A stretch of DNA of 64,000 bases, from assembly GCA_000310025.1 (NCBI GenBank), contig FN649730.1:2134647-2198646 (forward strand), given 5' to 3'. This DNA comes from Ectocarpus siliculosus. Its lineage: Eukaryota > Sar > Phaeophyceae > Ectocarpales > Ectocarpaceae. Positions 6,559 to 48,965 of this stretch are shown piece after piece. The number at the start of each line of letters is the position of its first letter. Within the stretch, counting starts at the first letter, position 1. A program made the translations under genes and the position numbers. The notes beneath the pieces were generated by a model. The model saw only the letters and a program-made list of their open reading frames with translations. It ran no database searches and had not been told where the DNA came from.

Positions 6559-7632
6559 ATGGACGTTCTGCTGCAAAGAGCTGCCATGGAGCCAAGAACA
6601 GGTTCAGAATGTCAGCGGCTAACGGGACCTTCATCTGCGTCGAGGCTACAATGGGCAATTTGGCCTCTAAACCTCAAACGCCTGGAATTTGATTCGGACA
6701 TGCCAGTGAACACGGTTTCGTGGCCGGCCTCCCTGCAGCAGCTATCGTTTGGTACTGAATTCAACCAGCCCATTGTGGAAGTCGCGTGGCCGGCCTCCCT
6801 GCAGCAGCTATCGTTTGGTACTGAATTCAACCAGCCCATTGCCGAAGTCGCGTGGCCGGCCGGCCTGAAGCGTCTGTCGTTTGGAGTGCTCTTCAACCAG
6901 CCCATTGCCGAGGTCGTGTGGACAGCCTGTCTGAAGCGTCTGTCGTTTGGTACTGAATTCAACCAGCCCATTGCCGAAGTCACGTGGCCGGCCGGCCTGA
7001 AGCGTCTGTCGTTTGGAGTGCAATTCAACCAACCCATCGCCGAAGTCGCGTGGCCGGCCGGCCTGAAGCGTCTGTCGTTTGGAGTGTTCTTCAACCAGCC
7101 CATTGCCGAAGTCGGGTGGCCGGCCGGCCTGAAGCGTCTGTCGTTTGGTACTGAATTCAACCAGCCCATTGCCGAAGTCACGTGGCCGGCCGGCCTGAAG
7201 CGTCTGTCGTTTGGAGTGCAATTCAACCAGCCCATCGCCGAAGTCGCGTGGCCGGCCGGCCTGAAGCGTCTGTCGTTTGGTACTGAATTCAACGAGCCCA
7301 TTGCCGAAGTCGCGTGGCCGGCCGGCCTGAAGCGTCTGTCGTTTGGAGTTTACTTCAACCAACCCATCGCCGAAGTCGTGTGGTCGTCCCCCCTGCAAAA
7401 GCTATCGTTTGGGCGTTGCTTCAACCAGCCCATTGTGGAAGTCGCGTGGCCGGCCTCCCTGCGAAAGCTATCGTTTGGTACTGAATTCAACCAGCCCATT
7501 GTGGGAGTCGTGTGGCCGGCCTCCCTGCAGCAGTTGTCATTCGGGGTGGACTTTGCACAGTCCTTGGCTCAGGTGGTACGGCCGACCTCCATACACAGTG
7601 TGACTCAAGCCGAAGTAGGTAGTCTGCTATGA
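6559..7632 (+). CDS. FNIP-repeat protein
   Basis: This frame encodes a solenoid of about fourteen 22-residue repeats (W-P-A-x-L-x-x-L-S-F-G-x-x-F-N-Q-P-I-x-E-V). They match the FNIP repeat family known from Dictyostelium and abundant in brown algae, usually regarded as leucine-rich-repeat-like binding surfaces. The ATG at 6,559 is the first in the frame shortly before the first degenerate repeat; an ATG at 6,586 is an alternative. An upstream exon is possible, because the frame stays open further 5'. The last unit decays before the stop, giving about 357 residues. Repeats 5-7 and 8-10 are almost identical at DNA level, a recent 198-bp duplication. No catalytic domain or signal peptide is visible. 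Its specific partner is unknown. Confidence 0.75.
   Translation: MDVLLQRAAMEPRTGSECQRLTGPSSASRLQWAIWPLNLKRLEFDSDMPVNTVSWPASLQQLSFGTEFNQPIVEVAWPASLQQLSFGTEFNQPIAEVAWPAGLKRLSFGVLFNQPIAEVVWTACLKRLSFGTEFNQPIAEVTWPAGLKRLSFGVQFNQPIAEVAWPAGLKRLSFGVFFNQPIAEVGWPAGLKRLSFGTEFNQPIAEVTWPAGLKRLSFGVQFNQPIAEVAWPAGLKRLSFGTEFNEPIAEVAWPAGLKRLSFGVYFNQPIAEVVWSSPLQKLSFGRCFNQPIVEVAWPASLRKLSFGTEFNQPIVGVVWPASLQQLSFGVDFAQSLAQVVRPTSIHSVTQAEVGSLL
6730..7590 (+). repeat. 66-bp tandem repeat array (FNIP units)
   Basis: The DNA of the FNIP gene is about 13 tandem units of 66 bp. Because 66 is a multiple of three and the units lack stops, several other frames, including two on the minus strand, also stay open across the array. 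Those are by-products, not genes. Confidence 0.9.
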
Positions 7633-8054
7633 CAGCTGTCGAGAAACGCGTCCGGTTGTGTGGGTCTTGGTAGAATAGGGGGCTAGGCTCAGGCACCCGT
7701 CTAGAGTAGATTCACATCTGCGAATTTGATATCTACGTAAGACACACCCACTGCTATCAGCGAGGAAGCCTGTGATGTCCATACGCGTCAAGTTGGCGAT
7801 CCCCTCAAGTGCACGACTTCTTCCTTCATGACTCGACACGCACGCTCGAAAGTGGTATCAATTGCTTGGGAGGCAGCAGTGCAAACATCGTGGAGGACAT
7901 CGGTTATAGCCGTTGTGTGTGATAGACCAATGTCCTGGTACCGAGCCTCAACGACGGTTATTTGGAATTTCGCCGAGATGGGGGCGTGTGATTAGGGTAG
8001 CGCAAGAGCAACCGTTAAGAAAGGTAATGCTAATCACGACACCAACCACATTCT
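7633..8054. other. Spacer, nothing recognised
   Basis: This follows the FNIP stop codon and probably includes its 3' UTR. No gene, RNA or repeat was recognised. Confidence 0.4.
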
Positions 8055-31046: not shown

Positions 31047-34000
31047 CTACCTGTACTGCATTGCATCGTAGCGTTCTGTTACACCGGAAGGAGGTGACTC
31101 ACATGATGCATCCATCCGAGGAGGCAACCATTGGTCTTTTGTNNNNNNNNNNNNNNNNNNNNNNNNNNNNNNNNNNNNNNNNNNNNNNNNNNNNNNNNNN
31201 NNNNNNNNNNNNNNNNNNNNNNNNNNNNNNNNNNNNNNNNNNTGGTGTCCCGAAATGTAGTCGACCTCGAGGCGCCCAACAGGCACCGACACATCATCTG
31301 CGGTGACGTGAAACGGTGGACATTTGTCGCCGAAAGAGTGCAAGACATGACGCGAAAGCTCAGCGGGTAGAGATTGAGGCAGGTCGTCCGTCTCGTATGG
31401 ATTGCGACAGGGCTTGCAACGAAGGACAGATACCCGACATCGAGCAGCTGGGCCGGAAAGATCCGAAGGCAGGTCCAGGTAGAGGAGTTTGCGCGCCAAC
31501 GGGCTTCCATCTGGGGTGGCGTCGGCCGAAGCGGGACCCACCGCAAGAACTTTGTAAGGCCCCGTCCAGGAAAGCGCGAATTTGGCCTTGAGCACCTGTT
31601 GATCCGTGTCCTTCCGCACACCCTGTCGAATTGTAGCAGCCGTGTTGTAGACCCAAGCCCACCCGCCAACAGTAAATTGCGGGAGCTTGTGGATGGCGTC
31701 CAGCAGGGATGAATTACTGCGTTCGACTCGCGAAATCTTCAGGGCGTTGTACTCACGGACCAGGTCGTAGGCCCGGCGCTGGCGATCGACAGCCAAGTTG
31801 CAGTACTCGAGTTGGTCACGGGCTAAGCTTTGATGACCACCGACCGTTGGATGATCGAAGACCGAAAGCGGAAGCCGCGGAATGCGTCCGATATGGATCT
31901 CGTTCGGCGCCAATCCAGTCGACTGGTTCACGGAATTGTTGTAGGCAAATTCAACGTGCGGGAGATGTATGTCCCAATCGTTTTGCTGGTCGTTGACGAC
32001 TACCGCAAGCATCTGAGCCATCGTGTGATTGACGCGTTCCGTGCCGCCGTTGGTTTGCGGGTGGTAGGAGCTGGTGGTGACTTTCTTGATTTTCATCATC
32101 TCATAGATCGCCATGGAGAGCTTCGAGCAAAATTGCAGTCCGTTGTCCGACAATAACGTAGTCGGACATCCCCACTTGGTCATGTACTGGTTGACGAAGA
32201 TGTGAGCCGTCCCTTTCGCCGTAAATTCCGCCGCTGTAACCGCGAACATGTCGGCTCTCCGGCTGAAACGGTCTGTGAACAATAAAATGTAGGAGTTGCC
32301 CTTGGCAGTCACGGGCAGGGGTCCGAAGAAGTCGACGCCGACGACCGTACCAGGCCCCTGTGGCAATGGCATAGCGATGACGGGCCACCGAGCGGTTTGA
32401 CGCGAAGTCTTGCGAGCTTGACACACCAAACACGCGCGAAGCCACCAGCGTACGGATCGATCCAGACCAATCCACCAGTAGAAACGCTCAAGCAGACGTT
32501 GTGTACGATGAACATCAAGATGGAAGGACGCGGCGGTATGGCAGGCATGAAGGACCCACGGACGCATCAACATGGGCACGTTGACACGGGGCACACCAGT
32601 ATCCGGTAGACGAGTGGCCCTGCCGCCAGAGCGCCCGATCGGCGATGGCGCCGGTTTATGTACGAGGAGGGTGACGTTATCATCGGTCGTGTGCAGCCTG
32701 GTTTTCGCCGCCAACGCAAGGATATCGTCTAACCGAGGGGAGCGGAGCGGGGCACTAAGGGTGAGCAAGTCAGAAGGGGGTGGGGAGGGAGAGCCACGAG
32801 ACAGAAAACGCATAGCCACCACGCATTCCCTCTCCCGCTGTTGTTCCCTAGCCCAGTCCACAGTGCCGAAGCTCTGAACGCAAGCTCGCAAATGTGAGGG
32901 GTCCAAGTCAGTTGGCTCCAACCCAGAGTCAAGCGATCCCACGGAAGAGGCTGTAGAACGAGGAGCCTCAACGACTGGTGAAGTTGCAGACAGCGGTGTC
33001 ACCCTAGGAGGAGGCATCGGGAGGGGCGACGTCCCAGGCGAAACCTGGATAGAGGGCAAAACCGAGGATGCAGCGCGCGCCGATGCCGGCGAAGGCACCT
33101 CTGGCGCAGAGGCAGTCGACGAAAACGCCGACGTTGGCGTCGCAGATGACGGCAGGGGACGCGTGCCGGTCTGGATGGTCTTGTTTGTCGAGCGGGACCT
33201 GCTAGGACGACGGGCAGTGGACGATGCCCGAGGGACGATGGTAGCCCGCGGCTGGCGTCCGAAATAGGTGGGACCGGTGACGGTGCCTCCAGAAGCAGCG
33301 GTGGTCTTGGCCCGAGTTCGTGAAGAAATGAGCGGTCCCCGCTCCGGAAGCGAAGACAGGACGTGCACATATCTATTCGCCAAAGACGCGGCCGGAGACA
33401 TTCCGCGGGACGTAGCCGGAGCCAAACAGGAAACAGGCACCGGAGACGCGGAAACATGTGAGACCACGAAGACTCCCGAAGACCTCCGAGAATCTTGATA
33501 ATCAATCGGTGAGTCCGATCGAACATCCAGCAGGCGCGGGTGATGACGGCGAAAATCCCCAAAATCGGATGGCTGTAGCGCTGGGGGTGAAAAGACGCCT
33601 GCGGAGCAGGGAGGGCGGAGCCCACCCAAACCGACCTCCGGCGTAGACGACGAGTGATAGTTGAGTCCACAAGCCCGAATGAGGAAGACACCAGCGTGAT
33701 CGACACCATCAATGCAATCGGGGCCGGTTGTGTCCGTGTCTTGTGCTGGTAAAGGCAGCCGCGAAAGAAAATCCGCGTTGCCGTTTGCCGAACCTTTCCG
33801 ATATTTCAGGGTGTAGGTGAAGTTGGACAGGAATTCGAGCCATCGTTGTACCCTGGCGTTGTGTTCTCCAACCTTGCCAATGCTCTCTAAGGTTTTGTGA
33901 TCTGAATAGATGATGAACTTGGTTGACCATAAATAGCCCCGAAGACGCTTAATGGCCCAAACAATGCCACCAGCTTCCAGATCCAGAAGAGTCCAGTTCC

Positions 34001-37000
34001 GCTCCGCCGGAAGAGTAGCGCGGCTGATGTACACAATGGGTCTTACCGAGCCATCGAGTTGTTCTTGTTCCAGGGAGGCTCCAAAGCCGTCAATGCACGT
34101 GTCGGAGCACAAACGGAGAGGACGGCTGTTGTCCTCGACCGCAGCCCAATCCGGGAAGACCAAAATCGGGGGACGCGCGAGTTCGCTCAACAACGTTTTG
34201 ACAACCTTGACCATGCCCGGGGTGTACTTGAAGGGGACGCCTTGTTTGAGAAGAGAGTTGAGAGGCCGCACCTTGGTGGCGAGATTCTGAAGGAATTTCC
34301 GGTAGTAGCTGAGGCCACCGAGGAGGCTCCTAAGCTGCTTAACATTCGTCGGCGGCGGCATGTGCGTGAGCGCCCGAACCTTGACGCCATCAGGGCTAAC
34401 CCCAGCCGGGGAGATGGTGTGACCGAGGAAATTGGCGTGGGTGGCGCCGACACGAGCCTTCCCTGGAGACAGCTTGAGGTTGTACTGGCGCAGCCGTTTG
34501 AAAAACTCGATCATGTTGAGCACGTGTCCCAGAGGTTCCTCATCGAAACAGATAACATCATCCAGATAGGCAAGCACACGCTCCAGACCGTGCACCACTC
34601 TGCTGATGACCTTGACGAACCAAGACGGGCTGGCGTTGGCTCCTTGCGGCATCCGAAGCCATTCGAACAACTGCGTGGGAGTGCCAAAGGCGGTGAGCGG
34701 GACAGTGTCTTCGTCACAAACGATCTGGTGGAAGGCCGAATTGAGATCGAAGATGGAGAACACTTTCCCGGTGTAGAGAGAATCCAAGATACCGTCCACC
34801 CGAGGGAGAGGTTGTCCATCCAAGTCCACCAGGGCGTTGAGTCGTTTGTAGTTGACGGTGATGCGAACCGATCCGTCCTTCTTGGGGATGACGACCAGGG
34901 GAGAAGCCCAGGGAGAAGTGGAATGCTGAATGAGCCCTGCCGCCAAATACTGATCCAAAACGGCATCCACTTTCTTCTGCATTAACGGGTTAATACGATA
35001 CGGGCGCGATGCGACGGGCTTCGTCCCGGCGGGGACAGAAAGAGCGAATGGCATGACGGTGCAAGAACCAAAATCGGTTTTCGAAGTAGAGAACACGTCG
35101 GAATACGCAACAAGGGCGTCGGCCAAACGATCAATAGCCTCCGGTGTCCATCCCGGGTTGTGAAGATCGAAAGCGATGTCGTGCATATGTGCGGGCAGCC
35201 TAGCCCACAATCGCAGAAAACTGGAACGCTGGGCCTCGGAGAAGCGGTCAAGCAGTTCTTGTGGGGGCGGCTTCGGAGGAGGCGGGGCGGAGGCTGGGTC
35301 CGGAGAGCGGCGAGTCCCGGACTTGGGGCCAACGGCGTTGACCCGATGCGGTGATGTAGAGGATGGGGGGGCGGTGGGAGTCGAAGATGGAGCCGCCTTC
35401 AGAGTTTCTACCGGTACTCGTAATAGCGGTGCAGCAGACACGCCAAGAACGTCGCCCGGCTCCAATTCGGCACAACCTGCAAGGGGAATACGCTGAAGAC
35501 CATTGGAAACAAATGCATCGGGGGACGAAAGTGCACCCACTTCAGGTCGGAACGATACGAGATATTCGCCGATCAGCGCAGGCATGCCCGAAGAACGGAC
35601 GAGGTCCACCTCAACAAGGGCCGGCTCCGGCCCCAAGGAAATGCCCGAGCTCCCTGCATATTTGAGGTGAAACGAAGAGGCAGGAGCGTCGTCGTGCGTA
35701 GCGTAAACACACGCGCCAGCGGTGAAACGTGGAGAGAGCGTGAGCTCGCCCATAACCCGGCCGTTTGGTCCAGGGTGGGGGAGGGTGGTGAACACTCGAG
35801 AGTTGAACCGCATCCAGCTATCGCGACCCAGAAGCACGGCGTGCCCCATGGCGGCATCTGGAACAACGCAGGCCCAGACCGCCAACGAAGCGGTAGCTCG
35901 AGCTCCATGAAGAAAATTAACGGTGAGACGAACTGACCGAGTGGTCACAAGGGCGGGTCCATCACCAAGCCCACCCCAACGACGAGAGGGAGAAACACGA
36001 ACGCTGCCAGCTGTCAAGGCTCCAGCAGCTACCATGGCGGTGACCACGGAGTCGGACACAAAAGACGAAGGAGATCCAGAGTCCAGCAGCGCCACTCGCG
36101 CGAGTTGAGAAGTGGCTGTAGGTCCTCCATGCAGCAGAACCCGGGTGGTGTAAGAGTCCGAGTCCAACAGGAGCGTGCCGCCGACCAGATCGGGCCCGTG
36201 TTCCAGAAGAGGAGGTTGGTCTGCACAAGCGGAGGTCGAGGCCACCAGATGAACACCAGGAGCATGGTCCCCCGGAGCGTCCAAATGGAGACAGGCTGGG
36301 TCTTCACCCCGGTCCTCCCGTGACGACGAACCTGCCACGGTAGCAACCTCGTGGATGCGTCTACGGCCATGTGGAGGAGGCTGCAAAATGGGAGGTGCGG
36401 GAGAAGTGGAGGCGGGGAGAGCTTCGCCAGACAGGGGATGATCACGCAAAAGGCGCCGAACTTCCATCAAAGCTTTTCCCAACAAGTTTTTACCACTAGA
36501 CGCCCACTTGGATGAAACGCTAGCCTCCGGAAAGCATGCAGACATGCCGATACCCCAAACGCGATCGAAGGGGCTGGCTTCCGCAAGGAGGCGGGTACCC
36601 GTCTCCAGTAAATGTTGTTTCATGTCGTGGTTTTGAGCGAATTTGGCATACGACCCCGTAAGCACGATCTCTTCTCGACGACGCTCCCATTCAGCATAGT
36701 CAAAAGGACGTACGTTACGACCCAAGTACTTGTGTGTCTTAGGATCTGGTGCAGCCATGATTTTGTCATACGACGTCATATCCCCAAACAACTTCGCTTT
36801 TTCAGACATCATAAATTGCTCACCACATGAATAACGTACCCCCAGTACGTCAAAAACCGAGGGAGTCCATTGCGAGAACACAGACGGAGGTTTCCAGAAG
36901 AGGAGGACGTCATCCGAAGCGTACTCGCATTTGTCATCAAACGGCGGAGCCGGTGCAGGGCGCAGAGGCAAAGAGCGGGCACCAGGCACGGGCGGGGGTG

Positions 37001-37751
37001 GGCCAAGCGGACGGGTCCTCATCTCCGACGGGGAGGACCCAGAAAGCGAGGGAGGAGCGGGCGAAGTCGCTCCGGTCCATGATCCGGAGGGCGGCCTACG
37101 GGTGGCGGCTCCGGCGAGGTCAATGTTAGCAGAGGCCATTCGGCTATTAGAGACTTGTTCGTTAGGAGAAGTCTTTCCTGCGGCAGACGGATATGTGTGA
37201 ATGGACGCAGGGCGCTCTGGACTACTCCCCCGTGACAAAGGAGCCGAACCTTCCACAGAACGGTGGGCACTACCATCCGATCCCGATGGCAGTGGTGCAG
37301 TCAGCACGTTGTGGGCAGCAGAGGAAGACGCATTCGTATCAGGTGCTGCCACACGGGGGCAGCGGACGGTCGAAGACAACGAAAGCTGCGAGAGAGAAGG
37401 AGAATCGACGGGGTCCCCGACGAGTGTAGAAGAAGGCTCGTGTGCTATCCGAGAAGAGGCCCGGCTGACAACACCAGGAGAGTCTTGGCGAACAGTAGTA
37501 GACGAGGTTCTTGTTCCTTCTGTAACCCGAGACGGCGAGGTGAGCAGGGGTGAACCACTCGACGTCTTACCTCCCTGTCGCCCACACCACAAAGGTTGTG
37601 CCGGAGTGGGTTTGTCATGTCCAATACCAGCAGACGATGAGGTGGGTGACGAGGAGGCGGGCCGAGAAACTAGATGTGATTTGGGGGCGTGGGGAGTATC
37701 CAAAGAAGTAGGCTGTACACGAACATCCTGGGAGACTCCAAAAGGGTGCAC
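31047..37751 (-). CDS. Pol of the Ty3/Gypsy element, with NADAR-like domain
   Basis: An open frame of 2,234 residues. Ser/Pro-rich N-terminus (1-270); NADAR-like domain (about 283-437); aspartic protease (about 540-655, L-L-D-S-G-S); RT (about 930-1,100, with I-F-D-L-N-S-A-F and Y-L-D-D); RNase H (about 1,205-1,310); Ser/Pro-rich linker of about 350 residues; integrase with zinc-binding H...C-L-V-C and D,D,E core (V-G-V-D-F-F-G, L-S-D-N-G-L-Q-F); then a G-W-A-W-V-Y block and a chromodomain-like end (E-V-D-Y-I-S-G-H) running into the assembly gap. The long linkers are unusual for the family. Confidence 0.9.
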   Translation of the reverse strand: MHPFGVSQDVRVQPTSLDTPHAPKSHLVSRPASSSPTSSSAGIGHDKPTPAQPLWCGRQGGKTSSGSPLLTSPSRVTEGTRTSSTTVRQDSPGVVSRASSRIAHEPSSTLVGDPVDSPSLSQLSLSSTVRCPRVAAPDTNASSSAAHNVLTAPLPSGSDGSAHRSVEGSAPLSRGSSPERPASIHTYPSAAGKTSPNEQVSNSRMASANIDLAGAATRRPPSGSWTGATSPAPPSLSGSSPSEMRTRPLGPPPPVPGARSLPLRPAPAPPFDDKCEYASDDVLLFWKPPSVFSQWTPSVFDVLGVRYSCGEQFMMSEKAKLFGDMTSYDKIMAAPDPKTHKYLGRNVRPFDYAEWERRREEIVLTGSYAKFAQNHDMKQHLLETGTRLLAEASPFDRVWGIGMSACFPEASVSSKWASSGKNLLGKALMEVRRLLRDHPLSGEALPASTSPAPPILQPPPHGRRRIHEVATVAGSSSREDRGEDPACLHLDAPGDHAPGVHLVASTSACADQPPLLEHGPDLVGGTLLLDSDSYTTRVLLHGGPTATSQLARVALLDSGSPSSFVSDSVVTAMVAAGALTAGSVRVSPSRRWGGLGDGPALVTTRSVRLTVNFLHGARATASLAVWACVVPDAAMGHAVLLGRDSWMRFNSRVFTTLPHPGPNGRVMGELTLSPRFTAGACVYATHDDAPASSFHLKYAGSSGISLGPEPALVEVDLVRSSGMPALIGEYLVSFRPEVGALSSPDAFVSNGLQRIPLAGCAELEPGDVLGVSAAPLLRVPVETLKAAPSSTPTAPPSSTSPHRVNAVGPKSGTRRSPDPASAPPPPKPPPQELLDRFSEAQRSSFLRLWARLPAHMHDIAFDLHNPGWTPEAIDRLADALVAYSDVFSTSKTDFGSCTVMPFALSVPAGTKPVASRPYRINPLMQKKVDAVLDQYLAAGLIQHSTSPWASPLVVIPKKDGSVRITVNYKRLNALVDLDGQPLPRVDGILDSLYTGKVFSIFDLNSAFHQIVCDEDTVPLTAFGTPTQLFEWLRMPQGANASPSWFVKVISRVVHGLERVLAYLDDVICFDEEPLGHVLNMIEFFKRLRQYNLKLSPGKARVGATHANFLGHTISPAGVSPDGVKVRALTHMPPPTNVKQLRSLLGGLSYYRKFLQNLATKVRPLNSLLKQGVPFKYTPGMVKVVKTLLSELARPPILVFPDWAAVEDNSRPLRLCSDTCIDGFGASLEQEQLDGSVRPIVYISRATLPAERNWTLLDLEAGGIVWAIKRLRGYLWSTKFIIYSDHKTLESIGKVGEHNARVQRWLEFLSNFTYTLKYRKGSANGNADFLSRLPLPAQDTDTTGPDCIDGVDHAGVFLIRACGLNYHSSSTPEVGLGGLRPPCSAGVFSPPALQPSDFGDFRRHHPRLLDVRSDSPIDYQDSRRSSGVFVVSHVSASPVPVSCLAPATSRGMSPAASLANRYVHVLSSLPERGPLISSRTRAKTTAASGGTVTGPTYFGRQPRATIVPRASSTARRPSRSRSTNKTIQTGTRPLPSSATPTSAFSSTASAPEVPSPASARAASSVLPSIQVSPGTSPLPMPPPRVTPLSATSPVVEAPRSTASSVGSLDSGLEPTDLDPSHLRACVQSFGTVDWAREQQRERECVVAMRFLSRGSPSPPPSDLLTLSAPLRSPRLDDILALAAKTRLHTTDDNVTLLVHKPAPSPIGRSGGRATRLPDTGVPRVNVPMLMRPWVLHACHTAASFHLDVHRTQRLLERFYWWIGLDRSVRWWLRACLVCQARKTSRQTARWPVIAMPLPQGPGTVVGVDFFGPLPVTAKGNSYILLFTDRFSRRADMFAVTAAEFTAKGTAHIFVNQYMTKWGCPTTLLSDNGLQFCSKLSMAIYEMMKIKKVTTSSYHPQTNGGTERVNHTMAQMLAVVVNDQQNDWDIHLPHVEFAYNNSVNQSTGLAPNEIHIGRIPRLPLSVFDHPTVGGHQSLARDQLEYCNLAVDRQRRAYDLVREYNALKISRVERSNSSLLDAIHKLPQFTVGGWAWVYNTAATIRQGVRKDTDQQVLKAKFALSWTGPYKVLAVGPASADATPDGSPLARKLLYLDLPSDLSGPAARCRVSVLRCKPCRNPYETDDLPQSLPAELSRHVLHSFGDKCPPFHVTADDVSVPVGRLEVDYISGHXXXXXXXXXXXXXXXXXXXXXXXXXXXXXXXXXXTKDQWLPPRMDASCESPPSGVTERYDAMQYR
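31143..31242. other. Assembly gap, 100 N
   Basis: This run of 100 N lies in the chromodomain-like end of Pol. Sequence to either side is in the same frame, so the gap size may be close to real or arbitrary. Confidence 0.95.
36441..36905 (-). other. NADAR-like domain within Pol
   Basis: Residues about 283-437 of Pol follow the NADAR (YbiA) pattern throughout: an F-W-x(5)-F-S-Q-W start, a V-x-Y-x-x-x-E-Q-F-M segment matching the family's T-S-E-H-Y-F-Q, K-A-x-L-F-G-D, L-G-R-x-V, W-x-x-x-R-x-x-I, A-K-F-x-Q-N, L-L-x-T-G, E-A-S-P-x-D-x-x-W-G-I-G, and finally G-K-N-L-L-G-x-A-L-M-x-V-R. NADAR enzymes are N-glycosidases; members remove ADP-ribose from guanosine in nucleic acids or act on riboflavin intermediates. 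The Glu and the W-G-x-G positions are kept, so the fold is probably intact. A role in countering host ADP-ribosylation is inference. Confidence 0.85.
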
Positions 37752-37973
37752 GGTGGTTGCTAGTGACGGTAGTACCGGCTGAACTCCGCCATCGGAATGT
37801 CATTTCTTACCCTTCCAGCCCCTCTTAGCCGAAGTGGAAGCCTCCGATGAGGATTCTGTGTGCGAGGACTGTTTCATGTCCGATGTGTCAGATGAACGGC
37901 GGGCGCGTCCCGAGGAGTGAGCACGGGGTGGGTTGCGTCCTGTAGGTCGTCTATACGAGGTCATGCGCTTTTT

Positions 37974-40900
37974 CTACCGACTCCAAAGTGTGGGATCTTT
38001 TTCCATGCAGAGCTTGATGTCATTGTTAAGCAGACCTGTGGCGTTAATGAACCCACGAGTACAAGATTTGAAGGAGTGGTCTTCCCCTAAGCAGTTGAGG
38101 CACTTGCCCTTGTACAGCCGAAGCGCGTTGCGACGGTCTTCAGCCGAGACCAAGGGGGTGAACAATGGCGGATCATTCTTGGTTAGAGCCATCTCACTAG
38201 CGACGTTGTATACCTCTGGAAAGTGTCCTTGCAGCGGCCAGTCGCTGTAGTGCAACAGAAAAGGGTCTCGATCATCATATGGTAGAGGGTCAACACTCAT
38301 CACCGCAGCCGAAGAACCTGGACTCCACGAAGGGGTCACCGACGACCGCAACGCCGAAGAAGCTACAGCACGCGAAACAGCAGACGAACTCCGAGCATTC
38401 GTGGAAGACACCGAAAAAAAATCGTCACCATGTACCGCCGGCGTGTGAGCGAATGCACGCTTGTCCAACACATCCCACATATCGTCCAAACACGAAGCAT
38501 GTCGCCCAAAAGGGGCTTCCATGGAGAGCTGCTCATCCTTGTACACCTGTCCAGACACTACGGGAAACTGCTTCAACATGGAGTCGCGAACAGCTATCTG
38601 CACTTGTGCATCCGAAGGCTTGAACGCGTGATGAGAAACCATGACAGTCATGGCCAGAGCCTTATAGCGACGAATGTATTCTCCGTACATCTCGCCGGTG
38701 GACACGCCAAAACTACGAAGGCGATCGATCCCCGAGCTCTTGTCTTGAGTGTCCCAGGCGGCCGCCAATTTCTGGATGAAGAACGCGTACGTCGAGGGCC
38801 CGGCCGGTTCCTTGCGCAGATGGTTTTCTACCTGTTGGAAAGTGGCATCAAGAAATTCCAGCGTGGCACGGTTGGTGGTTTGACCTTCAACGACAGCAGC
38901 ACGAACACGTGTGCGCAACAACGGAAGCCATCCTGTGACCCAGGTGGAGGAAGCGAAAGTCTGCTTGCGTTTGACGTCGCTTTTGGTGAGGATCTCGGTG
39001 ACCACGCCCTTGCAGCTAGACGCGAAACGAGCAAATTCATCAGGATCAGAACCAAGGGGCAAGCGTGTGACACTATCAAGTTGTTCCGGCTTCAGCTTGT
39101 CCATCTTGTCTTGAATGCGGATGGTGTCGGCCTCCGCTACAGCGGCGTCCGCAGCGTCCAAAGCCTCCTGCCTCGTCCTCGCCCCCGTGGAAGACAAAGG
39201 CAAGCTAGCATCATCCTGAGGCAACGGCGATGTCGCGTTGGCCGGTGACGCCATGACGTGGCCAGTCGCCGGGCGAGGATCGATCAGGATAGACGTACGC
39301 GGAAGGGGGGGGGGCACCACCAAAGGCTGTTGTAGCAGAGCTGGAGCGGTCGACGCTGATGGCACCACCAAAGTCTGTTGCGGCAGAGCTGGGGCGGCCG
39401 GCGCTGGTGACGATGACACTGCCGTGGCCCTGGCAGCCGCCTCATCGTGAACCTCGTACCCTGAACGAACTCCCGAGGAACTCGAAGCGTGGTCTTGCAG
39501 TGGTGCCAAATGCGTCCGCGACGAAAAGGGTGGGGCAGAAGGTGGCATGCTAGGGGCGTTCGAGGGCACAAAAGGTGGTACATTCGAGTCGGCAGCAGCA
39601 TCCACAACTTGGCCAGACGTTTGCGCGCGCAGGAGAGTGAGCACTTGTTCCAACAGCATTTCAGTACGGGAAGCCGAAGTTGAGGCGTGTGATGCAGCAT
39701 TGCGTGGTGAACCAACCCGTTCGTCCAAAAGCAAGGAAGATGTGGGCTGATCTACCACGGTGCGTGTAGGGGCATGGCTTTTAACCGCGGCGGAATGTTC
39801 ACGAAGTTGCATGTTGGCAAGTTTGAACGCCAAGGTAGACACGGGCGGCGGTCCTACATCAGCGGGGGGGAGCAAAACCGGTGGCGAAGAACAGAGTGAA
39901 CCATCTTCTGAGGCAGTCTTACGTTCCCCCAACAGCCCAGAACTACGAAAATCACACCGATCATACTGCACTTGCCTGCGACCCCGACCTGACTTCCGTC
40001 GCCCTTTGCCCCCTCGACCGCTGTCCGAGCTGGTCGCCCTGCTGTTGCCCCCGCTCCTCGTCGGACTCCGGCTGCGGCTACGCCTACGCGAAGGCGTGTT
40101 GCTCCCGCGGCGGTCGCTGCTCCGGCTGCGACCACGCCGAAACGAAGGTGCGTGACGTGGCTGGCGGTCCGTGCTCCGGCTCCGGCTCCGGCTCTCGCGG
40201 TGTCGACGCTTGGACGAAGATTCCGCGTACCCCCGCCCGCCATCTTCAACACCCGGCCCTCGCGAAGTGCGCTCGGCCGTCCCGCTCTTGGCCGTGGGGG
40301 CTTGATCACCCCAACGGCTCCTTCGGCTGGTGGAGGCAGGAGCCGCCGACAGATTGTAGTCCTTGGTCCCTCCGGAACCATGCGCACGGCTTGCAGAATC
40401 CTGCTGTGGGAGCTGCAGATCATGCTGAAAATCGTCGTTGGTTGCAGTACGAGCTAGCGGTAACCGAATTCCCCCATTGTGCACCACCACCGCGGTTCCC
40501 TGGGGACCCTCGGTGAAGGAAGCCCTACGGAGAGCAGACACCAACCGAAACACACTCTGTCGTAAGGATGGTTGAAGCTGGTCGAGGAACGGACTCGATA
40601 CAAGATGTGCAAAACCAAGGTCTGTATAAGAGTCAGGACAGCGGTCACGCACAATTTGTTGGAGGCCAGCCCACGCAAAAAGGGCACGAGTTCGGTCAGC
40701 ATCATGGAAGGTGATCACATCTGTGGGTGTGGAAAGGGGGCGGGACAGGAACGCTGTGTCTTCTGCGTGAAACCTGTACTCCTCGGCTTCGTCGTCCGAC
40801 GCTCCATCGGCATCCCCGGCCGGCCCACCCAGCGTCACAGAAAACTGGGGAGCAGCAGCCACTTCCGGAGCCGCCTGGGGCGTGGGAGGGGGCACGACAC

Positions 40901-42344
40901 GACGATGGGCGGGTCGCGAAAGCAAAGTTGAAGCTTGCCGCCGGTGCTCGAGGTCCTCCAGCCGTGATCGGAGCGCTCCCTGCTTCGCCCTAGCAATCCG
41001 GACATACTCCTCGCGCGCCGCTAGTTCCGCTTTCTTCTGCGCAGCAGCCCGAGCAGACTCGCGCTCCTCCTCCTGCTTCCTCGCCGCCTCCGCCAGAGCA
41101 GCCTCTCGCTCCTCCTCCTGCCTCCTCGCAGCTTCCGCCATAGCAGCCTCACGCTCCTTCGCCTGCTTCTTCGCAGCCTCCGCCAGAGCAGCCTGACGCT
41201 CCTCCTCCTGCTTCCTCGCATCATCCGCCAGAGCAGCCTCACGCTCCTCCAGCAGCTTCCGCTCTTCCGCCGCCGCTACCTTGCTAGCCAGACCGCGGTG
41301 CCACATCTCGGTCAATTCTTGAAAGGCGACGAACTCATCTTGCGGCAAGTGCATCACCGTGTCTTCCTGCGGGAGCGAGAAAGGGCGAGCGCAAATGGGG
41401 GAACCAGGAGACAAACGAGCCGCCCTGACCACGTCGCGCAGGGAGATCCGTCCAGCGGTGTACGCCTGTTCCAGGTCCGCCGGATCCGCCGTGGCGATGT
41501 TGTACCTCAGGTCCTCAGCTGTGGACGCGCCTGGAGTGGACTCGCTCTCGTCGCCCGTCCCGGCCCCTGCCATCAGCTCCGCGGTGGACGGCTCGCCCTC
41601 GGCCTCGTAATCGAGGATTTCCTCATTGCCGTCCATCAGTTCCACATAGCCGCTGGACATGGTGTTCTCTTTTTTCAAAAGGACAGGGCCAGAGGAAGGG
41701 CAGCTACTATCGATTTTTACAAGTGCAGAAAGGCCAGCAACAGCAGATGTGTCACCCCCAACCGCTGTTGCGACAGCAGAACCGATTTCAGCGGAAACAG
41801 TAAAGTGGGGCGTAATCGCGGTAGAAGCAAGCCGAGGTCCATGCGAAAAACGGAGATACCCACAGGATAGCATACGCCCGGTGATAAAAGCTTGATGCAT
41901 ACGAGGTTGAAGCGGATCCAACCAAGCAGAAAATGCGTCCAAAAGCACACCATGCCACGCATACACAGCAGTGGAAGCTAGCACAAAAGGAACGATATTA
42001 ACTGGAGACACGAGATTGTCCGACCAAAACACACGCAGAGCAGCACGGCGTTCCTCCGCAACGGGTGCCGAAGTGCGAGCAAAGACCGCTGTGGGTTTGC
42101 GCTGTTGAAAGGTTTCCAATTCAAATGCCTTGAGGGTGAATGATGCTCCAAAAAAAATTTCCATGTGATTGCGAAAAATGGAGGGAAGGCTGGTGGGGCG
42201 GCTGATACCCAATTTGTGTGCACACAACGCTCTCCACGTCGAAACAAGCGGAGTCAAATCGGAGAGCACCACAGGGAAATCCGCGGACATCGGCCGGTAC
42301 GCCGGCATGAATGCAGTAGAGGTGATAGCGGACGCGGGAAGCAT
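37974..42344 (-). CDS. Gag of the Ty3/Gypsy element
   Basis: An open frame of 1,456 residues, very large for a Gag. In order: an N-terminal region of about 230 residues without recognised motifs; a likely in-frame start M-S-S-G-Y-V-E-L at 41,661; an acidic stretch; a coiled coil rich in Glu, Ala, Arg and Lys (about residues 350-470); an Arg/Ser-dipeptide-rich block (about 690-780); a Pro/Ala-rich region; the Gag core (about 1,100-1,320); and a zinc knuckle C-L-N-C-L-G-E-D-H-S-F-K-S-C near the C-terminus. The RS-rich block is reminiscent of splicing factors and could serve RNA binding. The Gag and Pol frames are separated by about 220 bases. Confidence 0.85.
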   Translation of the reverse strand: MLPASAITSTAFMPAYRPMSADFPVVLSDLTPLVSTWRALCAHKLGISRPTSLPSIFRNHMEIFFGASFTLKAFELETFQQRKPTAVFARTSAPVAEERRAALRVFWSDNLVSPVNIVPFVLASTAVYAWHGVLLDAFSAWLDPLQPRMHQAFITGRMLSCGYLRFSHGPRLASTAITPHFTVSAEIGSAVATAVGGDTSAVAGLSALVKIDSSCPSSGPVLLKKENTMSSGYVELMDGNEEILDYEAEGEPSTAELMAGAGTGDESESTPGASTAEDLRYNIATADPADLEQAYTAGRISLRDVVRAARLSPGSPICARPFSLPQEDTVMHLPQDEFVAFQELTEMWHRGLASKVAAAEERKLLEEREAALADDARKQEEERQAALAEAAKKQAKEREAAMAEAARRQEEEREAALAEAARKQEEERESARAAAQKKAELAAREEYVRIARAKQGALRSRLEDLEHRRQASTLLSRPAHRRVVPPPTPQAAPEVAAAPQFSVTLGGPAGDADGASDDEAEEYRFHAEDTAFLSRPLSTPTDVITFHDADRTRALFAWAGLQQIVRDRCPDSYTDLGFAHLVSSPFLDQLQPSLRQSVFRLVSALRRASFTEGPQGTAVVVHNGGIRLPLARTATNDDFQHDLQLPQQDSASRAHGSGGTKDYNLSAAPASTSRRSRWGDQAPTAKSGTAERTSRGPGVEDGGRGYAESSSKRRHRESRSRSRSTDRQPRHAPSFRRGRSRSSDRRGSNTPSRRRSRSRSPTRSGGNSRATSSDSGRGGKGRRKSGRGRRQVQYDRCDFRSSGLLGERKTASEDGSLCSSPPVLLPPADVGPPPVSTLAFKLANMQLREHSAAVKSHAPTRTVVDQPTSSLLLDERVGSPRNAASHASTSASRTEMLLEQVLTLLRAQTSGQVVDAAADSNVPPFVPSNAPSMPPSAPPFSSRTHLAPLQDHASSSSGVRSGYEVHDEAAARATAVSSSPAPAAPALPQQTLVVPSASTAPALLQQPLVVPPPLPRTSILIDPRPATGHVMASPANATSPLPQDDASLPLSSTGARTRQEALDAADAAVAEADTIRIQDKMDKLKPEQLDSVTRLPLGSDPDEFARFASSCKGVVTEILTKSDVKRKQTFASSTWVTGWLPLLRTRVRAAVVEGQTTNRATLEFLDATFQQVENHLRKEPAGPSTYAFFIQKLAAAWDTQDKSSGIDRLRSFGVSTGEMYGEYIRRYKALAMTVMVSHHAFKPSDAQVQIAVRDSMLKQFPVVSGQVYKDEQLSMEAPFGRHASCLDDMWDVLDKRAFAHTPAVHGDDFFSVSSTNARSSSAVSRAVASSALRSSVTPSWSPGSSAAVMSVDPLPYDDRDPFLLHYSDWPLQGHFPEVYNVASEMALTKNDPPLFTPLVSAEDRRNALRLYKGKCLNCLGEDHSFKSCTRGFINATGLLNNDIKLCMEKDPTLWSR

Positions 42345-43429
42345 GCTATCATCCCGAGTCCCACACTACACAAAGGCAACAACTCCGGTTGCTGCATGCA
42401 AAGCGTGTCCGCCACCGAAATAACTTCATGGACCGCCGATGCAGACAAAATAGCTCGGGAGGGGCGGCGAACGTAGGAAAAATCACCTACAACATCGCGA
42501 TGACCGCCGAGGCGCGTATCCTGCGCAAGGTCCCAGTCCCGCGGACGCTTAGCAAACGCATCGCAAGCCAGCATCTCGACAGGAGAAGAAGCAGAGAAGG
42601 CTAAGTCTAGATTCTCGTGGGTGGTGAGACCAAATAACCAACAACCCAGTGATTGTGAAGAAAGTGTGACAACAACACACAGCAGTGTGGAGGCCGCGTC
42701 CAGCACCCGCTTACCGTGTAATGCCAGCTGACGCCAAGTTTAAAGGAGGGGAAGCCGTGGGCGGTAGCTTGCTCCTAGAGATAGATGAAGGTAGGTTCTG
42801 TCGTTGACACGCTTGTCCACGATCACGATGAGATGAGAAAGTTGCTTGTTATTGCTGAGAGACGATCAGCAAGGGTCTGAGGTGAAGTGGGGATCCAACT
42901 TCACCTCAGGGGGTACGCAGACTAGACAAATCCTATGAGGGTAGGTGCATGAAGGGTATACCTCCTGGGACCGACCCACATCCTATGAACAATAAGATGT
43001 ACCCTATTCAGGCTAGCAGCCACACTCCTTAACAACATGCCGCCAGGACCCACGACGGAACAGCCACACGGTAAGCAAGCAATTGGGGACAGACACCTAC
43101 GCCACAATGCGTTCAACCTTACACGTCAGGTAGAGGCTGTTCGTCCGCAGCGTTTGGTTTCATTTGGTCGTGGGGTCTCCCCGTGTGCACGCTTCCAGTG
43201 CATGGAGTGCCGCGCTCGCAACCCCGACACGTACGAGCAACGCTGTATGAGGCGCAGGTCAGGCAATGTTGGCGGCGGCCACTTTGGGTTGCACTCCCTT
43301 TTCTCATGGCCTTTACTCGAGATTTCAGGGTCGAAGACCTATAAATAGGGCCATGGGGTCACGCTTCGTAAGACTGTGGGGTTTTCGTGGGACTTCAGTT
43401 TTAAGACGCCTTGAACTAAGTTAGATTTA
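42345..43429. other. Upstream flank of the LTR element
   Basis: The 5' LTR and leader of the minus-strand element would be expected here, but no sequence here matches the other flank by eye. A perfect 11-bp hairpin (42,878-42,908) is the one clear structure. A TATAAATA at about 43,340 (plus) has no assigned gene. Confidence 0.4.
42878..42908. repeat. Perfect 11-bp inverted repeat
   Basis: TGAGGTGAAGT and ACTTCACCTCA are exact reverse complements around a 9-base loop. Confidence 0.75.
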
Positions 43430-46524: not shown

Positions 46525-47740
46525 GTAATGCTTTCATTTCGTTCTTTATTTTGTCTTTTCTACCACTACTACAGTATTTTTTACAACACTTACTACTTGC
46601 ATACACCAAGGTTGGTTATTATGCCGTTGTTAGCAGTGCCTTGCATTTTGCGCTCAACGCATTTTCTGGTCCGATCGTTCCCCGGATATTCATTCTATAC
46701 TTTCTTTTCTACACATGAAAAATTGATTTCTTCTGCTACGTGTATAACCACATTTGAAGGATCGTGAGCAGTTATTTGGCGTTGACCGGGCCCAAACATT
46801 CAGGGTGGCCAAAAATAGCAAGTTGGACCGAAGTTGGACCGTCAAAAACGTACAGTAGTTTTAATTTTAAGTCTTACCACACAAATCAATATCGGTGTGT
46901 GTACCAGCAAGCAGCAGTTGACATACTGACATACATGATGTGCGGTGTTCTGTAGTTCGGCAGCAGCAACAGACCCGTATGTAGCCTGCTGCAATTTGTG
47001 TTTAGCTCATGTTCTGCAACAAACATGGTCGAACCATATGGTCCGACCGTTGCCTGGACATTAACTTCCACGCACCATTGGTTTCTTCTGCGGTGCCTTT
47101 TTTTTTCATACGCGGTGTTTCCGATATATTCCGCGTTCATTTCGACTTCTCCTTTAAGCGTACGTCATTTTGGCATTTTCCAAGTGCGATGGTGCCGACA
47201 GCAGTCTATTTACGGATGCCGAAGTATTTGTTGCGAAATAAAATACGCCAAAGTAGTTGTTCTGGATTAATCATACATGAAAATTACGACCTTCTCCGCT
47301 TAATTCATGGCCGCCGTGTCCGTCTCGGCCAATGTACGGCGAATGACACAATGGCAAAGATTTTCCTCCAGGCGGCCGTTCCTTGGACATTAACTTCCAC
47401 ATACCATTGGTTTCTTCTGCTGTGCCTTTTTTTCATGCGCGTTGTTTCCGATATTCCGCGTTCATTTCGATTTCTCCTTTGAGCGAACGTTATTTTTCGT
47501 ATTTTCCAAGTGCGATGGTGCCGACAGCAGTCTATTTACGGATGCCGAAGTATTTGTTGCGAAATAAAATACGCCAAAGTAGTTGTGCTGGATTAAATCC
47601 TACATGAAAATTTCGACCTTCTCCGCTTAATTCGTGGCCACCGTGTCCGTCTCGACCAATGCACGGCGAATCACACAATGGCAAAGATTTTTCCTCCAGG
47701 TGGCCGTCCCGCACCTCATCGGCGGGCGGCCGCCTATATC
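46525..47740 (+). repeat. Large direct repeat B, copy 1
   Basis: The block contains, in order, TTTTCTACCACTACT...TTACAACACTT, GCAGTGCCTTGC, CCGATCGTTCCCCGGATAT, a GTTGACCGGG...CAGGGTGGC unit, the TACATGATGTGCG...GTTCGGCAGCAGCAACAGACCC segment, and two tandem ~330-bp units (47,050-47,382 and 47,383-47,715), ending GGCGGGCGGCCGCCTATA. The same order recurs at 47,940-48,965. No coding capacity was recognised. Confidence 0.65.
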
Positions 47741-47744
47741 CTAG

Positions 47745-47945
47745 TACATACTTATATGACAGAAGAGCTGATGACGCGTACATCTTGATTTTAATACGCT
47801 GTCAGCTTTTGTTTGCTTTTTTTTTTTTGTTGCCCGTTCTAATCCAATGCAAGATTTCGGCGCGTACAAAATCCACAAGTGTTGGAAACATTGGCACAAC
47901 AGCGTTATAGTGCACCTTTTCCACACTTGTTCAACAGATATATTT
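47745..47945 (+). repeat. Direct repeat A, copy 2
   Basis: It matches 43,430-43,650 and lies exactly between the two B blocks, so A+B together may be one larger repeating unit. Confidence 0.65.
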
Positions 47946-48965
47946 CTTTCTTTACTTTTGTTTTTCTACTTATTACAACACTTGCATTATCCAAGGTTAC
48001 GCCGTTTTTGGCAGTGCCTTGCGTTTTTCGGTCAACTCATGTTCTGAACCGTGGCCAGACCATGGCCCGATCGTTACCCGGATATAACACGAAATAATTA
48101 TTTCTTCTGCTACGTGTACAACCACATTTTGAACAATCTTGAGCAGTTCTTTGGTGTTGACCGGGACGAAACATTCAGGGTGGCAACAACGAGCAAGTTG
48201 GACCGTTAATAACGTAGTTTTCAGTCTTACCACACAACAAATTGAACAATTCTTTGGTGTTGACCGGTACAAAAATCAGGGTGGCAACAACGAGCAAGTT
48301 GGACCGTTAATAACGTAGTTTTCAGTCTTACCACACAACAAATTGAACAATTCTTTGGTGTTGACCGGTACAAAAATCAGGGTGGCAACAATGAGCAAGT
48401 TGGACCGTTAATAACGTAGTTTTCAGTCTTACGACACAAACATCGGTGTATGAACCAGCAAGCAGCAGTAGACGTAATCACATACATGATGTGCGCTGTT
48501 GTGTAGTTCGGCAGCAGCAACAGACCCATATGTAGTCTATTAGCAGTATGCTGCATTTGGCGTTTAGCTCATGTTCTGAACCAACCATGGCCGAACCATG
48601 GTCCGATCGATACCCGGACATACATTTACACGTACTATTGGCTCTTCGGCGGTGTCTGCTTTTCATGCGCGTTTGTTTCCAATATTTCGCTTTCATTTCG
48701 GCTTCTCCTTTAAGCGTACGTCATTTTCGTATTTTCCAAGTGCGATGGTGCCGACATTCTATTTACGGACGCCAAAGTGTTTGTTGCGAAATTAACTACG
48801 CCAAACAAAGTAATTGTTCTGTAATAAATCATACATGCACATTACGACCTTCTCCGCTTAATTCGTGGCCGCCGTGTCCGTCACCATGGCTAATCACACA
48901 ATGGCAAAATATTTTGCTTCGAGGTGGCCGTCCCGCCTCGTCGGCGGGCGGCCGCCTATACCCTA
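47940..48965 (+). repeat. Large direct repeat B, copy 2
   Basis: It has the same landmarks and order as copy 1, with one ~330-bp unit (48,610-48,940) where copy 1 has two, and an internal expansion of a ~102-bp unit. Confidence 0.65.
48147..48450 (+). repeat. ~102-bp tandem repeat, three units
   Basis: Units start at TTCTTTGGTGTTGACCGG (48,147, 48,250, 48,351). The last two are nearly identical, the first is more diverged. The single counterpart in block B copy 1 is at about 46,770. Confidence 0.8.

Follow-up and report, generated by a model that had tools for sequence, protein, structure and literature searches.

A YbiA-type NADAR domain in the Pol frame of a Ty3/Gypsy retrotransposon of Ectocarpus siliculosus, and its possible role in the element

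INTRODUCTION

The pairing of a NADAR domain with a Ty3/Gypsy retrotransposon is already described in Ectocarpus (PMC12477816, Genome Biology 2025). According to the passages of that paper on NADAR elements, Gypsy-12_Ec32 and its kin in Ectocarpus sp. 7 carry the domain in the N-terminal region of Pol, and the Tx1 long interspersed nuclear elements (LINEs) of Crassostrea gigas are likewise retrotransposons with a YbiA-type NADAR. Among the literature matches listed, no other report of NADAR or YbiA in a transposable element was found. For RNA viruses, a conflict over ADP-ribosylation has been argued (PMC9503650). The present analysis concerns a stretch of 64,000 nucleotides of Ectocarpus siliculosus (contig FN649730.1, positions 2,134,647 to 2,198,646; the whole stretch is hereafter called the window). 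Judged from its sequence, the element found there probably belongs to the Ty3/Gypsy lineage already described in Ectocarpus, with NADAR in the same region of Pol as in Gypsy-12_Ec32, the two being compared by description.

The passages on NADAR elements in PMC12477816 contain nothing on selection or on the layout of the UGA codon that precedes Pol. To that account are added here an intact pocket, selection on the domain, the co-inheritance of NADAR with RT (reverse transcriptase), the UGA layout, a possible host-gene donor, and the observation that the window copy is cut at an assembly gap.

THE NADAR DOMAIN AND ITS ACTIVE SITE

An initial annotation, made from the letters of the window, had placed a NADAR-like domain at 36441..36905, inside the Pol frame of a Ty3/Gypsy element. 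The coordinates are right and the coding reading is on the minus strand, the plus-strand translation of 36441-36905 being interrupted by stops. The Pfam NADAR profile PF08719 matches Pol residues 301-452 (E 1.1e-44, 153 bits, cut-off 35.1) and is aligned over positions 2-163 of its 163, that is, over the whole domain. The NCBIfam family ribofla_fusion (TIGR02464) also matches (143.7 bits, cut-off 73.7), and Pfam finds RVT_1, RT_RNaseH and Integrase_H2C2 in the same Pol, in agreement with the proposed setting. Sequence matches in the PDB are 8bau (E 2.7e-17) and YbiA, 2b3w (E 4.9e-4), and the domain has the YbiA fold of the NADAR family. The motifs that had been named, a conserved Glu, W-G-x-G and G-K-N-x-L-G-x-x-L-M, are all present, the last two as WGIG and GKNLLGKALM. 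The profile NF053876 of NCBIfam (NADAR family anti-phage protein) gives a weak match to window 36441-36905 (33.3 bits, cut-off 240).

Residues were mapped by alignment to 8bau and by those named in section 12 of PMC11543638. The catalytic E43 and K50 and the YbiA-type E125 of 8bau correspond to Pol E327, K334 and E407, which are identical in all 39 NADAR copies compared. Eleven of the 13 pocket residues named for 8bau are identical in 39/39 as well; Y84 is Phe in all of them, and D86 is variable. These alignments establish, at the level of sequence, the identity and fold of the domain and an intact ADP-ribose pocket. Hydrolysis of guanine-linked ADP-ribose is its presumed activity, as predicted from sequence.

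GENOMIC COPIES AND SELECTION ON THE DOMAIN

The genome searched comprises 189.5 Mb in 492 contigs. Scores were obtained for 150 of its 230 NADAR candidates; every scored row exceeds the cut-off, many being fragments, and 24 lie in open frames of 2,000-2,600 residues. The 20 best-scoring rows were taken with their flanks, and for 20 more loci the domain alone was taken. By tblastn, the order NADAR, protease, reverse transcriptase (RT), RNase H (RH), integrase (IN) recurs in 20/20 flanked loci, some of them frameshifted and one (L019) with additional RT and RNase H pieces further on. An assembly chimera without relatives, the objection that accompanied the initial annotation, is thus rejected: related copies share the domain at the same place.

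For the study of selection, two frameshifted stretches were dropped from 41 (the window and both sets of 20); the 39 kept, two of them with one stop each, were grouped by eye into five families (a-e). Between families, the proportion of synonymous differences (pS) in NADAR is 0.73-0.89 and that of nonsynonymous differences (pN) 0.23-0.35, and pN/pS within families is 0.16 (a), 0.26 (b), 0.49 (d) and 0.15 (e). When the window copy is compared with locus L022 of family a, pN/pS is 0.13 in NADAR, 0.18 in RT plus RNase H, 0.23 in integrase and 0.27 in the protease, and rises to 0.57 in the linker between RNase H and integrase and to 0.72 in the N-terminal linker; 4 of 13 changes are nonsynonymous versus an expected 78% (p 0.00035). 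From these substitution patterns, NADAR is under purifying selection, comparable to that on RT in the single pair measured.

DISTRIBUTION AND CO-INHERITANCE

Eight long proteins were found to contain this NADAR, five of them with RT. The RT search kept the best 120 of 232 proteins, and 55 of these were placed in a tree with the window. Every NADAR-bearing Pol in the tree falls in one clade of 26 rows (support 100/100), 16 with NADAR (counting the window; P0157 and P0132 are partial) and 10 without it. Most of the absences are read as truncated frames, eight of the ten rows beginning too near the protease or RT to contain the domain. P0142 and P0148, with 299 and 892 residues ahead of the protease, have room for NADAR, yet lack it. 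Since P0142 is the earliest branch (92/80), NADAR was either gained after it split off or lost in it. NADAR is missing from the next four rows outside the clade (P0153-P0156), in three of which it would fit. Distances in NADAR and in RT are in agreement (Mantel r 0.886), as measured on the window and 10 Pol proteins after removal of near-duplicates and partial sequences. A single uptake, followed by joint descent with RT, would be the simplest reading of these trees and distances.

Among the matches listed, the only named host of NADAR Pols is Ectocarpus sp. CCAP 1310/34 (P0123 and P0136), and P0123 is the nearest named Pol, at 95% in RT. Other proteins of the set have architectures of their own. 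In the gene model of P0148, PF14214, which we take to be a Helitron helicase-like family, is listed ahead of the NADAR-less Gypsy Pol, and two elements may have been joined. P0128 and P0129 lack RT and are NADAR proteins of great length, one of 2,912 aa with a DprA-like domain and one of 2,816 aa with FHA. The neighbouring Gypsy Pols P0154 and P0155 (43-44% in RT) have precomputed Pfam matches to the C-5 cytosine DNA methylase PF00145 and to PF00385, presumably a chromodomain; the methylase may be another enzyme capture nearby. Methyltransferases have reportedly been seen in retrotransposons.

THE GAG-POL JUNCTION

A UGA followed by C, a leaky stop context, stands ahead of Pol in a frame that is also open upstream, in the window and in 9/20 flanked loci: L022 (family a), L027 (b), L011, L012, L015, L017, L021 and L026 (c), and L020 (d). 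L017 has one more stop after the UGA. The Gag zinc knuckle lies in frame upstream of the UGA in L022 and L027; in the remaining UGA-C loci no knuckle was found within the stretch taken. In the window copy a further in-frame stop (37974-37976, the end of Gag) separates the upstream frame from Gag. From this layout we infer that readthrough yields Pol as part of a Gag-Pol protein, and NADAR would therefore enter the particle.

POSSIBLE FUNCTION OF THE POL NADAR

In the mechanism proposed, the lineage would have taken up a YbiA-type NADAR, most simply once, and retained it in Pol as a functional component. Readthrough Gag-Pol would carry it into the virus-like particle beside RNA, RT and integrase. 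There it would work as an N-glycosidase on the element's RNA or cDNA, freeing guanines (or ADP-ribosylated ends) of ADP-ribose and so keeping reverse transcription unblocked. To a captured and packaged NADAR that de-ADP-ribosylates element RNA or cDNA, the ADP-ribose coming from host defence or otherwise, a probability of roughly 0.5 is assigned. A UGA-readthrough Gag-Pol packaging a guanine de-ADP-ribosylase that specifically counters a brown-algal defence by repairing ADP-ribosylated element RNA or cDNA is a more doubtful proposition, and an unlikely one. The interpretation first put forward, that of a counter-defence enzyme, has therefore stood in part: a NADAR in a Gypsy Pol, with its pocket kept and under purifying selection, is upheld, while counter-defence itself is neither supported nor excluded.

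Several observations weigh against packaged repair. Six-frame searches of the genome, with introns ignored, found no match to DarT (control positives in 1/14 genomes) and none to Tpt1/KptA (3/14), and the PARP-like matches amount to four short pieces (0/14); since introns were ignored, the absence of DarT and Tpt1/KptA is weak evidence. Regarding readthrough, 11/20 flanked loci carry different stops in place of UGA-C, several of them many; UGA-C was seen in four families, the sample having no flanked locus of family e; and no clear RNA structure follows the UGA in the window copy (folding energy, z -0.36). Pol may instead start at an internal Met, and the region ahead of the first Met is weakly constrained (0.72, window versus L022). 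With a second in-frame stop ahead of Pol and no 3' end, the window copy is, going by its sequence, probably dead itself. Taken at face value, the presence of NADAR needs seven changes on the RT tree, at least five of them forced by starred branches. Finally, pN/pS of NADAR reaches 0.70 in family c, and in four copies of this family the domain is no more constrained than the linker; recent copies decay neutrally, so this is expected of young copies, yet it lends no support.

Three other explanations have been considered. The first, which is possible but tentative, has NADAR acting, in the life cycle of the element, on by-products of RNA processing or on small derivatives of ADP-ribose and not in counter-defence. 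It is close to the proposal, in the NADAR passages of PMC12477816, that RNA intermediates of transposition are processed, and for viral NADARs a link with RNA repair or with low-molecular-weight ADP-ribose derivatives has been drawn (PMC9503650); the fixed site early in Pol, and presumably within the particle, would however favour a nucleic acid over a soluble metabolite as the substrate, and the six-frame search gave no Tpt1 match. An improbable second explanation makes NADAR a binding or targeting module, whose ADP-ribose pocket would tether Pol to ADP-ribosylated chromatin or to broken DNA and so guide integration, with catalysis in a secondary role. Chromatin-reader domains are reported in Ectocarpus Gypsy elements of all four lineages (PMC12477816) and PARP-like pieces are present in the genome, but the invariance of both catalysis-implicated glutamates in 39/39 copies goes beyond the needs of binding alone, and NADAR is distant from the integrase within Pol. 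Retroelements pick up host sequence and a single copy could be chimeric, but a chance-caught gene fragment or assembly artefact useless to the element is very improbable given the 150 scored matches, the same order in 20/20 loci, the relatives in other public assemblies and the purifying selection.

If NADAR does work as a packaged repair enzyme, this would imply that brown algae have a hitherto unseen defence against retrotransposons by ADP-ribosylation of nucleic acids, and that a retroelement took a counter-defence enzyme from a cellular NADAR gene. Activity of the enzyme inside the particle would make the ADP-ribosylation of nucleic acids a field of conflict between eukaryotic hosts and retroelements that is open to experiment. 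The lineage is also a natural experiment, with NADAR under selection in one Gypsy clade and absent from neighbouring Gypsy rows.

ORIGIN OF THE DOMAIN

The donor of NADAR may be sought in algae, bacteria or viruses. In the blastp searches reported in PMC12477816, these NADARs hit almost only bacteria outside Ectocarpus, and horizontal transfer was suggested. Here, the best 120 of 507 relatives of the domain were kept. Among the matches listed, two short CCAP 1310/34 proteins (93% and 91%) resemble pieces of the element, and the next-closest are single-domain NADARs with a Cys/His-rich N-terminus in brown algae: Ectocarpus sp. 13 (60%), E. fasciculatus (56%), Pylaiella littoralis (51%) and Scytosiphon promiscuus (50%). 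Named bacterial rows in the same list show 50% over a smaller part of the domain. The genome itself has a host NADAR gene of at least four exon-like pieces (L059, C24:2125206-2127066). This gene has an N-terminal Cys/His-rich stretch, common to the single-domain NADARs of other brown algae. Two low-scoring full-length rows, L047 and L048 (C89:161521 and C46:327197), were the first host-gene candidates and are actually frameshifted element copies. Because the closest single-domain NADARs listed are brown-algal and a host gene lies on C24, a cellular algal gene is a live candidate donor; a metagenome protein, P0009, counts against it, as its identity to the domain of the window (59%) equals that of the nearest algal genes.

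The careful NADAR tree was built from 64 rows hand-picked from 141. In it, a starred branch (97/96) has the 15 Pol NADARs, five standalone algal-type genes and 11 further rows on one side and 33 rows on the other, with proteins of Actinoplanes, Amycolatopsis, Phyllosticta and Ostreobium among these 33; a branch for the Pol NADARs alone is supported by no more than 49/10. Neither of two constrained trees is rejected: one joins the Pol NADARs to the five algal-type genes (p-AU 0.446), the other joins them to the 33 rows (p-AU 0.532) and scores slightly above the free tree. A larger quick tree places algal genes beside the Pol NADARs (SH-aLRT 83) and is not counted as support. The choice between an algal and a bacterial donor is not settled by these trees. 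A viral donor is disfavoured, the best of 80 kept IMG/VR loci reaching 50% versus 59% for the nearest algal genes; phaeoviruses were not searched by name.

LAYOUT AND BOUNDARIES OF THE ELEMENT

The features of the window copy are collected in Table 1. The Pol order PR-RT-RH-IN (protease, PR, by motif and position) and a Gag frame ending in a CX2CX4HX4C knuckle are those of Ty3/Gypsy elements. In the window translation the Pol frame runs from 37799 to 31047 (minus strand) with no internal stop. The rve match lies under its cut-off (30.4 versus 32.6 bits), the Gag frame has no Pfam match at E 0.01, and the protease region, which has no Pfam match, is named from its LLDSGS motif. The Gag knuckle was spotted by eye in the window copy and by pattern in L022 and L027.

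Table 1. Features of the retrotransposon in the window (positions of the 64,000-nucleotide stretch)
Feature	Position	Strand	Remarks
5' long terminal repeat (LTR)	42739..43034	-	about 296 bp, TG at start; based on copy starts and solo pieces
Gag open frame, stop to stop	37974..42365	-	CX2CX4HX4C zinc knuckle near C-terminus
In-frame UGA, then C	37800..37802	-	directly ahead of Pol frame
Pol frame as far as the assembly gap	31243..37799	-	Ser/Pro-rich N-terminus, NADAR, protease, RT, RNase H, integrase
NADAR domain, Pol 301-452	36444..36899	-	profile and structure-sequence matches
Aspartic protease region, Pol 556-700 as used	35700..36134	-	LLDSGS motif
Reverse transcriptase, Pol 931-1190 as used	34230..35009	-	Pfam and tblastn
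RNase H-like domain, Pol 1196-1340 as used	33780..34214	-	Pfam and tblastn
Integrase, Pol 1736-1925 as used	32025..32594	-	H2C2 zinc finger and core
Assembly gap of 100 N	31143..31242		recognisable element sequence ends here; Pol tail and 3' LTR absent from the window sequence

Most long genome copies start at window 43034, which is query base 367 (the starts listed range from 362 to 368), and solo fragments of the initial ~300 bp of the element occur elsewhere in the genome. By eye, a TGG-starting stretch that follows the 5' LTR within a few bases resembles a tRNA primer-binding site. In the sister copies on C25 and C33 the two LTRs are identical at 298/298 and 294/296 positions, respectively, which indicates that the family moved recently. 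Beyond the gap, window 31047-31142 matches itself alone in the genome, and 30000-31046 matches itself and one 44-base piece elsewhere; this sequence fails to align with a sister Pol tail that does match the sequence before the gap. The final Pol residues in the window are thus not established as element. The 3' LTR may lie inside the gap or may have been lost, and a target-site duplication was not established.

The window also contains other repeats. A tandem array with a 66-base unit occupies 6653-7678 (12 overlapping copies, 64-89% alike to the reference), and 46888-48922 holds several direct repeats of 61-103 bases at spacings of 101, 325-329, 1,231 and 1,551 bases.

COMPARISON WITH KNOWN SYSTEMS

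For the Gypsy-12_Ec32 lineage a C-terminal chromodomain is reported in PMC12477816, whereas Pfam finds none in the sister tail L140 and the window lacks that end owing to the gap. By eye, the Pol tail of L140 (C25:565700-567300) has a chromodomain-like and then a Tudor-like part, with no Pfam or PDB match at E 1. The Tx1 LINEs of C. gigas differ more widely, being non-LTR elements with NADAR in ORF1 and hits that the paper calls divergent (PMC12477816). The Phytophthora nicotianae NADAR (8bau) and E. coli YbiA (2b3w) are separate proteins, while here NADAR is a domain of Pol. With DarT1-NADAR toxin-antitoxin pairs and phage NADARs, the Pol NADAR has in common the fold and the presumed chemistry. 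According to section 12 of PMC11543638, BC4488-type NADARs have Asp and phages His at the position of the YbiA Glu, where the Pol NADAR has Glu (E407); with this Glu and no DarT match in the genome, the domain departs from BC4488-type antitoxins, which have Asp there and a DarT-adjacent gene. The positive-strand RNA viruses have an unrelated replicase and are likened here by description (PMC9503650), the viral scan having covered IMG/VR contigs. In their polyproteins, as described in that paper, a NADAR is embedded with the polymerase of an RNA-replicating element, and the same logic of counter-defence has been proposed.
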